From Candidatus Binatia bacterium (GTDB taxonomy: Bacteria > Desulfobacterota > Binatia > UBA9968 > JAJDTQ01): a DNA stretch of 64,000 nucleotides. The notes beneath the pieces were generated by a model. That model searched no databases. It was not told where the DNA came from and saw only the letters and a list, made by a program, of their open reading frames with translations. Shown piece by piece: positions 14,752 to 49,208 of this stretch; the stretch's first letter is position 1; each line of letters begins with the position of its first letter. The translations under genes were made by a program, and so were the position numbers. The stretch covers positions 1 through 64,000 of the forward strand of contig JAJEAI010000124.1 in the NCBI GenBank assembly GCA_022824205.1, read 5' to 3'.

Positions 14752-14831
14752 GCGGCGACATCATTTCCGCGGACCAAGCCGTGTCGAATCGTCGCCCGGA
14801 CAAGAAGTGGCACCAACGCCCCGAATCGTCA

Positions 14832-14999
14832 TTGATAAGAAAATAAAATCTTGTTCAATGATTTCTGGTAGTTACGGAATCCCGCCACACCCCAACGAGT
14901 CATTCCCGCGAAAGCGGGAATCCAGGGGCGGTGGCGGGGCGCTGCAGCGGCGTTTTCCCGCTCCACCCCTCCTGGATTCCCGCTTTCGCGGGAATGACG
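14832..14999. repeat. Composite palindromic repeat, copy 1
   Basis: Leader TTGATAAGAAAATAAAATCTTGTTCAATGATTTCTGGTAGTTACGGAA then CATTCCCGCGAAAGCGGGAATCCAGG ... CCTGGATTCCCGCTTTCGCGGGAATGACG. Confidence 0.92.
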
Positions 15000-15016
15000 A
15001 CTAGAGGCATTGGACT

Positions 15017-15385
15017 TTGGCAAGAAATCGTCAAAAGACAGGCATTCCGCGTTCGCAGCGTGTGGGCGACTTGCTGATCGAGTTCGTTTCACGGCTGTTG
15101 ACGCGTTCCCTCAACGATCCGCGGCTCGCTTCGGTGACGCTGACCGCGACGGACGTGCGTCCCGACCTCAAGCACGCCACTCTCTACTTCACGGTGCGCG
15201 ACGGTGAGGGGTCCAGGGATGAAGCGCTCCTGGGCCTGCGCGCGGCCACGGGCTTTATCCGAAGTCGCATCGCCGTCGACCTCGATCTGCGCTTCGTGCC
15301 CGACCTCGAGTTCGTCCATGACGACGCCCCGGAGCGTGCCCGCCGCATCGAGGACCTTCTCAGCCAGGTCCGGTGCAAGGCATAG
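15017..15385 (+). CDS. rbfA: Ribosome-binding factor A (TTG start)
   Basis: RVGDLLIEFVSRLLTRSLNDPRLASVTLTATDV, FVPDLEFVHDD. Confidence 0.9.
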   Translation: MARNRQKTGIPRSQRVGDLLIEFVSRLLTRSLNDPRLASVTLTATDVRPDLKHATLYFTVRDGEGSRDEALLGLRAATGFIRSRIAVDLDLRFVPDLEFVHDDAPERARRIEDLLSQVRCKA

Positions 15386-20380: not shown

Positions 20381-20410
20381 CGTCATTCCCGCGGAAGCGG
20401 GAATCCATGG
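20381..20410. repeat. Single dRS3-like arm of the palindromic repeat family
   Basis: CGTCATTCCCGCGGAAGCGGGAATCCATGG just upstream of dut. Confidence 0.85.
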
Positions 20411-23021: not shown

Positions 23022-23082
23022 GAAGGAGTCCGTGGCGGAGTGTTGTCGCCCGCTCCGTTGTTGCCGGCCTCTCTCTCCGTCA

Positions 23083-23260
23083 TTGATACGAAGATATAAT
23101 CTTGTCCGATGAATTCAGGTAGTTACAGACATCCGTCTTCATCATTCCCGGCCCCCCCAATACGTCATTCCCGCGGAAGCGGGAATCCAGGATGGGTGGG
23201 GCCTGGGGCAATGGGCCGCCACACAACCACCCCTGGATTCCCGCTTCCGCGGGAATGACG
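23083..23260. repeat. Composite palindromic repeat, copy 2 (more diverged leader)
   Basis: TTGATACGAAGATATAATCTTGTCCGATGAATTCAGGTAGTTACAGA ... GTCATTCCCGCGGAAGCGGGAATCCAGG ... CCTGGATTCCCGCTTCCGCGGGAATGACG. Confidence 0.9.
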
Positions 23261-38847: not shown

Positions 38848-40596
38848 TCAACAGGAACCGGCGTTCTGCTTCCCGCGCAACGCCGTAGTCGCGGCGTGGT
38901 CCAGGACGATCGCGCCTTGTTGGCCGCCCAGAACCACCCCGTAGTCGCTCCGTGCCCTCTCCACCGACACGTACCCTTGCCGCACGTCTTCCAGCACCGC
39001 CTCCGGGCTGCGTTCGAAGGCCGTGCCCACGCCGCCGCCCCCCGGCCGCTCCATCCGCAGCACGTCGCCGCTCTTGAGCCGCTGGTCGCCGAAGCGCGAC
39101 GGCATGCTGCGCTCGTCGCCGGCACCGGGATTGATGATGCAGCCGCCCGTGCCGCCGGCGTGGCCGCCGGCAATGCCCTGGGGTGCGAGGGCGTGCTTGT
39201 CGGTGCGCATGGAAAAGCGCACTTCGTCCTGGAGGATGCGGTATTCGCGGACGAAGCCCAGGCCGCCGCGGTGGCGGCCGGGGCCGCCGGAGTCGGGGAG
39301 AAGCTCGAAGCGTTCCACCCGGGTGGGAAACTCGGACTCGATGATCTCCACGGGGGCGATCTTGCCGTTGCTCAGATGGAAGGAGGTGGCGGAGGCGCCG
39401 TCCCTGCCGTTGCGGCCGCCGACGCCACCGGCGAAGATTTCGTACTGGACATAGCTGCGCTTGCCGTCGCGGGCGCGGCCCCCCAGGGCGATGGCGCCGC
39501 TGCCGGAGCCTTCGGCGATGGTCTTGTCCGGGACCAGGGAGCCCATGGCCTGGAGCACGGCCTCGGCCACCACCAGCGCGGTGGGCATGTAGGCGTTGAC
39601 CGCGGCGGGGTAGTCGGGGCAGACCACGGTTCCCTGCCGGAAGCGGGTTTCCACCACCCGTGCCAGACCCTGGTTGATGGGCAGGAACGGGTCCACGAGG
39701 GCGATGAGGCAGTAGTAGCAACAGGCCCGCACCAGGGGCGGGCGGATGTTGGCCGGGCCGGTGGTCTGGGGGCTGCATTCCGAAAAGTCGAACAGGATGC
39801 GGTCGCCGGTCTTCTCCACGGTGACGCGGATGCGCACGGGCTTGTCGAGGTCGATGCCGTCGTTGTCGACGCACGCCTCGCCCGTGTAGCGGCCGTCCGG
39901 CCAGGAAGCGATGACCTGCCGCAACCGCCGTTCGGCGTGACCCGCCAACTCCTCGGTGGCGGCCATGACCGTGGGCTTGCCGTACTTGTCCAACAGCTCC
40001 GTCATGCGACGCTCGCCGAGCCGGTTGGCGCCCACCTGGCCGCGGATGTCGCCCACCACGACCTCCGGCGTGCGGCTGTTGGCGTGGATGAACCACTCCA
40101 GTTCGCGCACGGGCCGGCCGCCGTCCATGAACTTGACCGCGGGCAGGTGCAGGCCCTCCTGGAAGATCTCCCGTGCGGTGCCCGAGCCGCTGCCGGGGAC
40201 GGTGCCGCCGATGTCGCTCTTGTGCGCCATGCTGGCGCAGAAGCCCACCCACTCCCCCTTGTAAAAGACGGGTGTCAGCACGCCCATGTCCGGAGCGTGA
40301 GGGCTGCCGCCGCGGTACGGGTGGTTGACGATGTAGGCGTCGCCCTCTTGGAGTTGGTCCGGTGAGAACCGTTCGAGAAGGCCCTCGGTACAGGCAGGGA
40401 ACGCGCCCATGTGCAGCGGCAGCACCACGTGCTGGGCGATGACCTCGGCCCGGGTGTTCAGGATCGCGCAACTGGCGTCGTGGGATTCCCGGATGATGGT
40501 GGAGAAACCCGTGCGGAAGAGCGAGGTCTGCATCTCCTGCACGATGCCGTCCAGGGCGGCGCGGATGACCTGGACGGTGATGGGGTCGGCTGTCAT
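38848..40596 (-). CDS. Hydantoinase B/oxoprolinase family protein (paralog 1)
   Basis: DPITVQVIRAALDGIVQEMQTSLFRTGFSTIIRESHDASCAIL, GMGVLTPVF..MAHKSDIGG. Confidence 0.94.
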   Translation of the reverse strand: MTADPITVQVIRAALDGIVQEMQTSLFRTGFSTIIRESHDASCAILNTRAEVIAQHVVLPLHMGAFPACTEGLLERFSPDQLQEGDAYIVNHPYRGGSPHAPDMGVLTPVFYKGEWVGFCASMAHKSDIGGTVPGSGSGTAREIFQEGLHLPAVKFMDGGRPVRELEWFIHANSRTPEVVVGDIRGQVGANRLGERRMTELLDKYGKPTVMAATEELAGHAERRLRQVIASWPDGRYTGEACVDNDGIDLDKPVRIRVTVEKTGDRILFDFSECSPQTTGPANIRPPLVRACCYYCLIALVDPFLPINQGLARVVETRFRQGTVVCPDYPAAVNAYMPTALVVAEAVLQAMGSLVPDKTIAEGSGSGAIALGGRARDGKRSYVQYEIFAGGVGGRNGRDGASATSFHLSNGKIAPVEIIESEFPTRVERFELLPDSGGPGRHRGGLGFVREYRILQDEVRFSMRTDKHALAPQGIAGGHAGGTGGCIINPGAGDERSMPSRFGDQRLKSGDVLRMERPGGGGVGTAFERSPEAVLEDVRQGYVSVERARSDYGVVLGGQQGAIVLDHAATTALRGKQNAGSC

Positions 40597-40678
40597 ATCT
40601 GTCCTCGAAGCGTCATTCCCGCACCCTCTCCGTGATTTCTGCCTTCTCCTCCGTCATTCCCGCCTTCTCCTCGGTCAT

Positions 40679-40845
40679 TGATGTGAAAATAAAATCTTGT
40701 TCAATGATTTGTGGTAGTTACGGAAGCCCGCTACATCCCAACGAGTCATTCCCGCGGAAGCGGGAATCCAGGCGGGGTGGGGCCTGGGAATGAGGCCGCC
40801 ACACTCCCCACCCCTGGATTCCCGCTTCCGCGGGAATGACTCGTT
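40679..40845. repeat. Composite palindromic repeat, copy 3, with perfect 33-bp arms
   Basis: Leader TTGATGTGAAAATAAAATCTTGTTCAATGATTTGTGGTAGTTACGGAA; AACGAGTCATTCCCGCGGAAGCGGGAATCCAGG at 40740-40772, its reverse complement at 40813-40845. Confidence 0.95.
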
Positions 40846-40869
40846 AGGGGGGATTGGTGCCCGTTCCCT

Positions 40870-42657
40870 TCAACGGCTTTCGTTGCCCGCCTCCGCCCGT
40901 TCCCGCCGCACCGCCGCCGTCCGCGTCTCATCCACCACAAAGCCGCCGCCGCTCTCCTCCACCGCCACGCCGTATACCTCCAGGGCGTTGTCCGGCGAGA
41001 CGTAGCCGTTCTTCACGTCCCTGACCACGGCCTCGGCGTCGCGTTCCAGGGGCTCGCCCAACCCGCCGCCGCCCGGGGTCTCCAGCCGGAAGACGTCGGC
41101 CCGGCGCACGGCGACGTCGGAGCAGCGCGACGGGATCTCCCGTTCGTCCCCCGAGCCGGGGTTGAGGATGCCCTTGCCGGTGCGGCCGTTGCCGCCGCCT
41201 TCCACTCCCTTGGGCGCCACCACGTGTTTGGTGGAGCGGAGCGAGAAGCGGCCTTCGGGGTTCAGGAACTCGTACTCGCGCACAAAGCCCAGGCCGCCGC
41301 GGAATTCACCAGCGCCGCCGGAGTCGCGCACGAGCTCGAAGCGGCGCAGCCGGGTGGAGAACTCGGACTCGATGATCTCGATGGGGGCGATGCGCGCGTT
41401 GGACTGGTTGACGTTGGTGCCGGACACGCCGTCCTTGCCGGTGCGGGCGCCGGAGCCGCCGCCGAAGATCTCGTACTGCACGTAGCTGCGGCCGGTCTTC
41501 TCGTTCCGGCCGCCGATGATGATGGAGCGGCTGGCGCAGCCGTCGGCGATCTTCTTGACCGGCGTGAGCTGGCTCAGGGCCTCGAACAGGGCCTCCACCA
41601 GGGCGTGCACCGTGGGGTTGTAGGTGTTCACCGGCGCTGGGAAGCGCGGGTTGAGCACGCTGCCCTCGGGGCAGTTCACCTCCACCACCCGCGCCAGCCC
41701 CTGGTTGGTGGGCAGCGCCGGGTCGGTGAGGGCGGTGAGGCAGTAGGAGCATGCCGCCCGCACCACCGACGGCCGGATGTTGGCCGGGCCGCGGGTCTGG
41801 TCGGCGCTGCCGGTGAAGTCGAACAGCAGACGGTCCCCCTTCTTGTCGATGCGCACGCGGATGCGCACCGGTTTGTCCAGGTCGATGCCGTCGCTGTCCA
41901 GGAAGCGCTCTCCCTCGGCGCTCTTGTCGGGCCAGGTCGAGACCTCGTTGCGCACCCGCTCCTCGGTGAGCTGGAACAGGCGGTCGTAGCAGGCGAGCAC
42001 GGTCTCGCGCCCGTACTTGGCCATCATCTCGGCGAAGCGCCGCTCGCCCAGGCGCGCCGCGCCCACCTGGCCACGGATGTCGCCCACCACCAGCTCGGGC
42101 GTGCGGCTGTTGCAGCCGATGATCTCCTCGATGTCCTTGCTGGTCTTGTAGCGGTCGATGTACTTGACCGGCGGCACCTGCAGCCCCTCCTGGTACACCT
42201 CCCGCGCCTGGCTCCAGCAGCTCCCGGGCACCGGCCCGCCGATGTCGCTCTTGTGCGCCATGGTGGAGGAGAAGCCCACCCACACGCCCTCGAAGAAGAT
42301 GGGCGTCATCACGCACATGTCCGGGGCGTGGGGGCTGCCGCCGAGGTAGGGATGGTTGGTGATGTACGCGTCGCCCTCGTGGATCTCCTCCGGCGGATAG
42401 TTGCGCAGCACGCCCTGGGCGCAGGCCGGGAACGCGCCCATGTGGAGCGGCAGCACCACGTGCTGCGCCGCCACCTCGCCGTCGCGGGTGAGGATGGCGC
42501 AGCTCGCGTCCTGGGACTCGCGGATGATGGTGGAGAAGCCGGTGCGGAAGAGCGAGTTCTGCATCTCCTGCACGATGCCGGCCAGCCGCGCCTGGATCAC
42601 CTGGAGGGTGATGGGGTCCGCGGCGGCGGGGTCTACGTGGGTTTCCGGATGTGCCAT
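40870..42657 (-). CDS. Hydantoinase B/oxoprolinase family protein (paralog 2)
   Basis: DPITLQVIQARLAGIVQEMQNSLFRTGFSTIIRESQDASCAIL; start trimmed to 42657 because upstream ORF is repeat-derived. Confidence 0.94.
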   Translation of the reverse strand: MAHPETHVDPAAADPITLQVIQARLAGIVQEMQNSLFRTGFSTIIRESQDASCAILTRDGEVAAQHVVLPLHMGAFPACAQGVLRNYPPEEIHEGDAYITNHPYLGGSPHAPDMCVMTPIFFEGVWVGFSSTMAHKSDIGGPVPGSCWSQAREVYQEGLQVPPVKYIDRYKTSKDIEEIIGCNSRTPELVVGDIRGQVGAARLGERRFAEMMAKYGRETVLACYDRLFQLTEERVRNEVSTWPDKSAEGERFLDSDGIDLDKPVRIRVRIDKKGDRLLFDFTGSADQTRGPANIRPSVVRAACSYCLTALTDPALPTNQGLARVVEVNCPEGSVLNPRFPAPVNTYNPTVHALVEALFEALSQLTPVKKIADGCASRSIIIGGRNEKTGRSYVQYEIFGGGSGARTGKDGVSGTNVNQSNARIAPIEIIESEFSTRLRRFELVRDSGGAGEFRGGLGFVREYEFLNPEGRFSLRSTKHVVAPKGVEGGGNGRTGKGILNPGSGDEREIPSRCSDVAVRRADVFRLETPGGGGLGEPLERDAEAVVRDVKNGYVSPDNALEVYGVAVEESGGGFVVDETRTAAVRRERAEAGNESR

Positions 42658-42772
42658 GTCATCTCTTCCGGCAGGCTGTCGGCCTGCGTTACGGGTGCCG
42701 TTTTCATTGCCCTGAAATGGATGCACCGAGCCTCGGGCTCCGTAAATGGCGTGTCTCGCCCACGCCACGCCG

Positions 42773-42800
42773 CCTGGATTCCCGCTTCCGCGGGAATGAC
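42773..42800. repeat. Single right arm of the palindromic repeat family
   Basis: CCTGGATTCCCGCTTCCGCGGGAATGAC. Confidence 0.85.
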
Positions 42801-42834
42801 TTAACGGCAGTTTTTGCCCCATGAGTCCTTGATG

Positions 42835-46014: not shown

Positions 46015-46065
46015 ACGTCATTCCCGCCCCCGCCCCTGGATTCCCGCTTCCGCGGGAATGACGAT
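46015..46065. repeat. Partial/deleted copy of the palindromic repeat
   Basis: GACGTCATTCCCGCCCCCGCCCCTGGATTCCCGCTTCCGCGGGAATGACG; a further half arm at ~46090-46110. Confidence 0.8.
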
Positions 46066-48457: not shown

Positions 48458-48459
48458 TG

Positions 48460-48499
48460 TCGCGTCCCGCAAATCAGTGGCATGATTTGCGGGACGCGA
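48460..48499. repeat. Perfect 17-bp inverted repeat with 6-nt loop
   Basis: TCGCGTCCCGCAAATCA-gtggca-TGATTTGCGGGACGCGA. Confidence 0.9.
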
Positions 48500-48566
48500 T
48501 ACCGGCGTTGCACAAACCGCTCCCGCCGGGGTTGCATCCGCGCCGTTGAGACGGGAAACTGTGTCT

Positions 48567-48949
48567 GGACCAGCGGACCAGACGGTCGCCTCCGCGCCTT
48601 GCGTGGAGGAGGAAAGTCCGGACTCCACAGGACAGGGTGGCCGTTAACGGCGGCCTCGAGCGATCGGGGGAAAGTGCCACAGAAAACACACCGCCCGGTG
48701 GGTTCCGGCCATACGCCGGTCCTCCGGGTAAGGTTGAAAAGGCGAGGTAAGAGCTCACCGGTCCGCCAGTGATGGCGGATGCTTGGTAAACCCCACCCGG
48801 AGCAAGACCAAATAGGAGGGTTGGGTCGTCCGCCCGAAGCCCTCGGGTAAGGTCGCTGGACCCCGCGAGCAATCGCGGGGCTAGATGAATGACCGTCCCG
48901 CTTCTCGTTGGGAAGTGCGACAGAATCCGGCTTACCGGTCCGCTGGTCC
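48567..48949 (+). ncRNA. rnpB: RNase P RNA (bacterial type A)
   Basis: Conserved GAGGAAAGTCCGGACTCCACAGGACAGGGTGG, GTAAACCCCACCCGGAGCAAGACCAAATAGG, AGATGAATGACCGTCC, CGACAGAATCCGGCTTACCG; termini GGACCAGCGGACC/GGTCCGCTGGTCC pair perfectly. Confidence 0.95.
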
Positions 48950-49208
48950 CCCTCCCGCCGTCACCCGGCGATCCACCACGCACGGCCACCACCGTTCCAC
49001 GCTGTCCCGCGGCAGGGCCGCGTCCGCCGTTCCGCTCCGCTCCCGAGAATTTTTTTCGCGCGCCGAGGCGCGAGAATGAGTTCTCCAGCCCACATCTTGT
49101 GGCAGGCTTGCCCCGCCCGGCGCTGCCATACCCAGATATAGGAAAAAACCGTGCCGTTCCGCGTCGGTTTGGTGCCTCGTCAAACGCCGAAAATGTGACG
49201 TTTTCGTG

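Follow-up and report, generated by a model that had tools for sequence, protein, structure and literature searches.

The DNA analysed here (hereafter the window, 64,000 nucleotides) belongs to a Candidatus Binatota MAG of 4.82 Mb in 209 contigs, and holds three copies of an AT-rich leader fused to paired palindromes. Is this composite a discrete mobile element, as the earlier note had suggested in calling it a larger non-autonomous unit than a simple REP, or is the leader an attachment to a repeat of a known kind? We searched the window for the palindrome ATTCCC-N8-GGGAAT, permitting one mismatch, and recovered nine loci, all of them exact, where shuffling predicts 0.13. Six form head-to-head pairs (14902/14976, 23167/23237 and 40748/40818), so that the pattern is indeed present in each arm of the composites, and three are single (20385, 42778 and 46040). 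The N8 resolves to GC-N4-GC. The leader core has exact matches at 14840 and 40686, against an expectation of 0.00. Across the whole genome, 682 palindromes and 65 leader copies (at three or fewer mismatches) were counted, with none for the reversed and control patterns, respectively; these counts are approximate, because MAG assemblies break at such repeats. The features of the window are as follows.

14758..15017, plus strand: copy 1, whole 260-bp segment, absent from the sister species G001
14827..14899, plus strand: copy 1 leader (module F2), with CGTC and an AT-rich hairpin TCATTGA/TCAATGA, a GTAG..CTAC-type hairpin and a CACCCCAACGAG junction
14900..14926, plus strand: copy 1 left REP, CGTC-1-type (family as in PMC3733652), with stem ATTCCCGC/GCGGGAAT, 4-nt loop and tail CCAGG
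14927..14970, plus strand: copy 1 spacer, 44 nt, of a minor type (most leader copies have spacer type A)
14971..14999, minus strand: copy 1 right REP, head-to-head with the left REP
20383..20408, plus strand: solitary REP without leader, preceded by F1-like CAGGCTGTGTCAA
23078..23164, plus strand: copy 2 leader, diverged variant F2v, from sequence comparison
23165..23259, plus strand: copy 2 head-to-head REP dimer, from the palindrome search
40673..40745, plus strand: copy 3 leader, from the leader-core match
40746..40840, plus strand: copy 3 REP dimer, head-to-head, with a type A spacer, from the palindrome search
42774..42799, minus strand: solitary REP without leader, from the palindrome search
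46036..46061, minus strand: solitary REP without leader, in a 126-bp segment that is missing in G003

About 7 of the 73 leader bases distinguish copy 1 from copy 3, so that the two leaders are nearly identical, as had been noticed from the sequence, and the divergence of the copy 2 leader (23078-23164) was likewise evident. The start of copy 1 needed adjustment: its leader begins at 14827 (CGTCATTGATA), five bases upstream of the 14832 given earlier, and the DNA that is absent from G001 at this site (14758-15017) exceeds the 14832-14999 first delimited. This segment includes an F1-like outer module (14758-14826), the leader, the dimer and, directly against the start codon of rbfA, a tail of 18-20 bp. 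In its gene context, copy 1 has DUF503 on one side and rbfA on the other, within an infB-DUF503-rbfA-truB cluster; copy 2 is located between a SAICAR synthetase gene and purS, and copy 3 separates two hydantoinase B genes that are neighbours on the minus strand (38851-42822). The copy 1 insert extends as far as the first base of the start codon of rbfA (codons TTG-GCA-AGA here, GTG-GCA-AGA in G001), and its tail (15005-15020) bears AGAGG nine bases upstream of that codon; from its sequence, the repeat may therefore provide rbfA with a new ribosome-binding site.

The palindromic half of the composite is already known, because it matches the published CGTC-1 family of REPs, which includes the Neisseria dRS3 repeats to which the palindrome had been likened. 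CGTC-1 REPs have an 8-bp stem starting with AT, a 4-nt loop, an unpaired CGTC (or TGTC/CCTC) tag and a CCA tail (PMC3733652), and are found mostly as head-to-head dimers with spacers of 20-100 bp (Di Nocera et al., 2013; PMC3733652). The window copies show the same 8-bp stem beginning with AT around a 4-nt loop (ATTCCCGC-N4-GCGGGAAT). To describe the element more widely, we used a sample of 1.37 Mb of the genome, enriched for leader-bearing contigs, in which 270 REPs form 107 head-to-head dimers among 119 close neighbouring pairs, with spacers of 41-51 bp and a single exception of 109. Tails of CCAGG and heads ending in CG before TC predominate among the heads without a leader. Stem, loop, CCA tail, CGTC head tag and head-to-head dimers are thus shared with the family, whereas heads on the leader side are mostly GAGTC and depart from the CGTC tag, many dimers carry an AT-rich flank module, and the host phylum is absent from that survey (PMC3733652). 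The CGTC-1 dimers of Halothiobacillus neapolitanus (PMC3733652) are a close parallel in being regularly joined to another repeat; there, however, the dimer sits inside 41-bp palindromes, whereas here the 73-bp leader is mostly one-sided and alternates with other modules. Many REPs, for example near L076 11030-11065, also carry a partly palindromic loop insert of 22-24 bp (about TTGCCCTCGACCCCGATCGGGG), often in just one arm of a dimer.

Is the leader joined to these dimers other than by chance? Each of the 71 full-length leaders in the sample continues into a palindrome (the strict pattern for 68, variant REPs for the other three), and 57 of the 71 lead into a head-to-head dimer. Chance co-location, which would have undone the proposal, is excluded by this linkage and by the shuffling expectations. 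The reverse association, whose measurement the earlier note had advised, is partial: about a third of REP dimers in the sample carry the leader, as do 8 of 26 in the first-numbered contigs and the window contig, which were unselected for leaders. The leader opens with CGTC and the AT-rich TCATTGA/TCAATGA hairpin, followed by the GTAG...CTAC hairpin, and in nearly all sample dimers it stands on one side only. It is one of several outward flank families: F1 (with end GTTTTGACACAGCCTGTTCCGCGGGAATGACG); F2, the leader itself; F3, a GC-rich palindrome followed by another REP-like unit; and F4, tandem CGTATTGGGGGGCCGGGAATGA units. Its presence is also coupled to what lies between the REPs. An initial, loose scheme for classifying spacers proved too permissive, and under the stricter classification used here the asymmetric spacer type A occupies 47 of 54 leader dimers versus 11 of 40 dimers that lack both leader and F3 (p=5.6e-9), with a mostly fixed polarity in leader dimers (42:5). 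Leader, REP, spacer A and REP thus behave as a polar unit of about 170 bp. An assessment of whether dimers avoid genes was dropped, since the genome is GC-rich and its long spurious ORFs would make any such result untrustworthy.

Comparison with the sister species G001 and G003, in which the flanks of tested loci are mostly 85-97% identical, shows segments present in this species (G000) and missing from orthologous sites. At window copy 1 the 260-bp segment is missing in G001 with an exact junction, and the G003 site holds a segment of 83 bp in which there is a single REP but no leader. Among 20 leader loci with a G003 ortholog, six are empty, three contain other DNA without a REP and 11 contain a leaderless REP; the leader is present at none of the 20. 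Among 12 with a G001 ortholog, five were scored empty (one retains a partial REP) and about four have a REP with another flank; the others share the leader or are ambiguous. Where an aligned sister site has a REP but no leader, another flank module substitutes for it. For example, the G001 ortholog of window copy 2 is a REP dimer with an F1 module in the leader's place, and at C104:16972 the outer flank and right half are as in G001, while G000 has the leader as its left module where G001 has F1, and the two spacers are different.

One way to read these sites is as a classical MITE, in which leader and dimer together would make up a fixed, non-autonomous transposon bounded by CGTCATT...AATGACG and dependent on a DDE transposase for its movement. 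Such ends do recur, inserts of 220-420 bp are missing at orthologous sites, and a unit at C134:8771 has GTCATT-like sequence at both junctions when compared with G003. The most transposon-like copy that we observed, a 335-bp element at G000 C50:27701-28035, carries a leader at each end, in inverted orientation, with REP-REP-F3-REP between them. Yet about ten empty-site junctions yielded no consistent target-site duplication (there is one possible 6-bp case), the absent inserts range from 222 to 416 bp with differing outer modules and so lack fixed terminal inverted repeats, the leader is one-sided in nearly all dimers, and no autonomous copy was seen, the systematic transposase search having been for Y1_Tnp. 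The same points separate the unit from bacterial MITEs such as NEMIS/Correia, ERIC and RUP (as in PMC3733652), which it resembles in size, lack of coding capacity and hairpin: here neither fixed ends nor a consistent target duplication nor, in the Y1_Tnp search, a cognate transposase was found. We consider a classical MITE improbable. Linkage, polarity and presence/absence thus speak for the larger mobile unit envisaged earlier, but a discrete unit with ends of its own does not survive the variable lengths, the lack of a consistent duplication and the alternation of the leader with other flank modules. The leader best fits the description of a module that can be exchanged within a REP mosaic.

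At the other extreme, perhaps nothing but recombination is at work; old REP dimers would then have acquired the leader through gene conversion from one REP site to another, and no leader unit would have transposed. A REP without leader is already in place at 11 of the 20 G003 sites, the left module was swapped cleanly at C104, and the whole composite was swapped at window copy 2. Against this stand 11 leader-site comparisons with an empty orthologous site (six in G003 and five in G001, including window copy 1 in G001), as conversion cannot seed a site that lacks homology unless the relative has lost the element. We regard recombination as the sole process as unlikely, if less so than a MITE. 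An empty site in a relative could reflect deletion there, and movement is what the comparison of sequences suggests.

It might also be asked whether the leader is selected beside the REP hairpins as a functional RNA or regulatory element, such as a terminator, attenuator or mRNA stabiliser. The predicted fold of the copy 1 DNA strand is strong (z = -9.9), driven by the REP dimer, and copy 1 is placed between DUF503 and rbfA in the infB-rbfA-truB cluster. However, 69 leader variants gave no informative covariation (their variation is too low for a covariation test), neither an Rfam match nor a terminator-like site was found, and the copy 1 insert is missing from the same operon in the sister species. 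A conserved RNA was rejected as a candidate on the Rfam and covariation results, and a functional element of this kind seems very improbable, the least likely of the readings discussed here.

The palindrome occurs in all nine congeners examined, in 682, 567, 362, 114, 77, 64, 13, 10 and 5 copies, and F1 ends broadly track this gradient. The leader is limited to two of the nine, the sister species G000 and G001. Because the palindrome is in all nine, F1 follows the gradient and the leader is in two only, the order of appearance was probably REP, then F1, then leader. Among named contigs, an exact 28-base piece of the leader matched only those of a relative, a 'Candidatus Binatia' MAG. A phage or plasmid origin was rejected, as the leader was in no viral contigs and phage and plasmid records gave no match. 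The connection to a phage integrase that the earlier note had proposed to look for gained no support, the enzyme search having been for Y1_Tnp. No catalogued element with the same boundaries as the leader unit was found in the literature searched or in viral, phage and plasmid collections; as far as could be searched, the leader thus appears to be a new, lineage-limited module of known CGTC-1-type REPs.

Alongside the observed linkage, polarity, restricted distribution, empty and filled sites and alternation of modules, we place an explanation that we hold to be reasonably probable: a lineage-specific composite REP family, with a CGTC-1-type dimer core and a 73-bp leader module, amplified in polar units of about 170 bp and mosaic in its products. 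The hairpin-forming unit would reach new sites by copying in trans, for which the likeliest agent is a HuH/Y1 enzyme (RAYT-type) that acts on single strands and leaves no target duplication. At resident REP sites, recombination between shared CGTCATT/REP arms would then swap spacers and flank modules (leader or F1), as a few alignments suggest, and the outcome would be a mosaic and not a transposon whose ends are fixed. The least secure part of this mechanism is the enzyme step, the RAYT role being a lead drawn from gene proximity and co-occurrence.

CGTC REPs, dRS3 included, have been reported without a dedicated transposase (PMC3733652). A search for one, proposed in the earlier note, turned up exactly one Y1_Tnp gene in each of eight congeners and none in the ninth, G008 (10 palindromes). 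The protein combines Y1_Tnp with a slightly sub-threshold match to Bac_DnaA_C (a DnaA-type HTH), a content that fits subclass 2.1, which is reported not to be REP-associated (PMC6006769). The downstream neighbour, read from flanking DNA, is apparently the same LLM-type gene in all eight carriers. CGTC REPs stand on both sides of the gene in G000, G001 and G003; G005 has them on one side, and in the four REP-poor carriers they are absent from its flanks. In the sample, 1.0% of ORFs have an exact palindrome no farther than 230 bp away on each side, an approximate comparison because the nearest exact downstream palindrome in G000 lies slightly beyond 230 bp of the Y1 gene; and because the species share ancestry, the flanking counts more nearly as one suggestive event than as three. 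Across the class, palindrome-rich genomes more often carry RAYT relatives (14/16 versus 30/132; p=4e-4 at genus level, uncorrected for phylogeny), but none of 30 Y1 loci in nine REP-bearing members outside the genus was flanked by CGTC REPs, and a general RAYT-CGTC link across the class was rejected. No common TIRYT-style inverted repeat was found around the Y1 gene. The search has thus yielded a REP-flanked gene in four REP-rich congeners, a link that is absent outside the genus and that we treat as a lead. Paired inverted REPs, a single-copy Y1 HuH gene and REPs near that gene in REP-rich species recall the REPINs, BIMEs and RAYT REPtrons of GTAG REPs (PMC2817692, PMC3116915, PMC6006769), whereas the repeats here are of the CGTC class and the protein, by domain content, fits the subclass 2.1 described above. 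That this single-copy protein mobilises CGTC REPs and the leader unit is a tentative proposal, which we think doubtful; if true, it would give the CGTC superfamily its first dedicated transposase. Within this genus, which spans 5 to 682 REP copies per genome and in which a marked subfamily has expanded in two sister species, readable empty and filled sites, together with a single candidate enzyme gene in each of eight of the nine species, make REP spread and the swapping of flank modules testable. Around the gene itself (L076 11237-12211; G000 C157), we also noted a promoter-like site (TTGACA...ATAAT) and a GGGTCARACCTTGAACT motif that is conserved immediately upstream of the gene start in each of the eight carriers and may be an operator or TIR.

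Two further features of the window lie close together. A 71-bp palindromic segment at 48458-48528 (TGTCGCGTCCCGCAAATC...GATTTGCGGGACGCGATAC) is missing in G003 and, judging from its sequence, possibly belongs to a separate MITE-like family; G003 in turn has inserts of 159 and 193 bp (L209:11661 and L211:7350) with AGTGTC...GACACT-like ends, which are possibly related to it. The stretch at 48570-48950 encodes a class A RNase P RNA (E = 4e-99).
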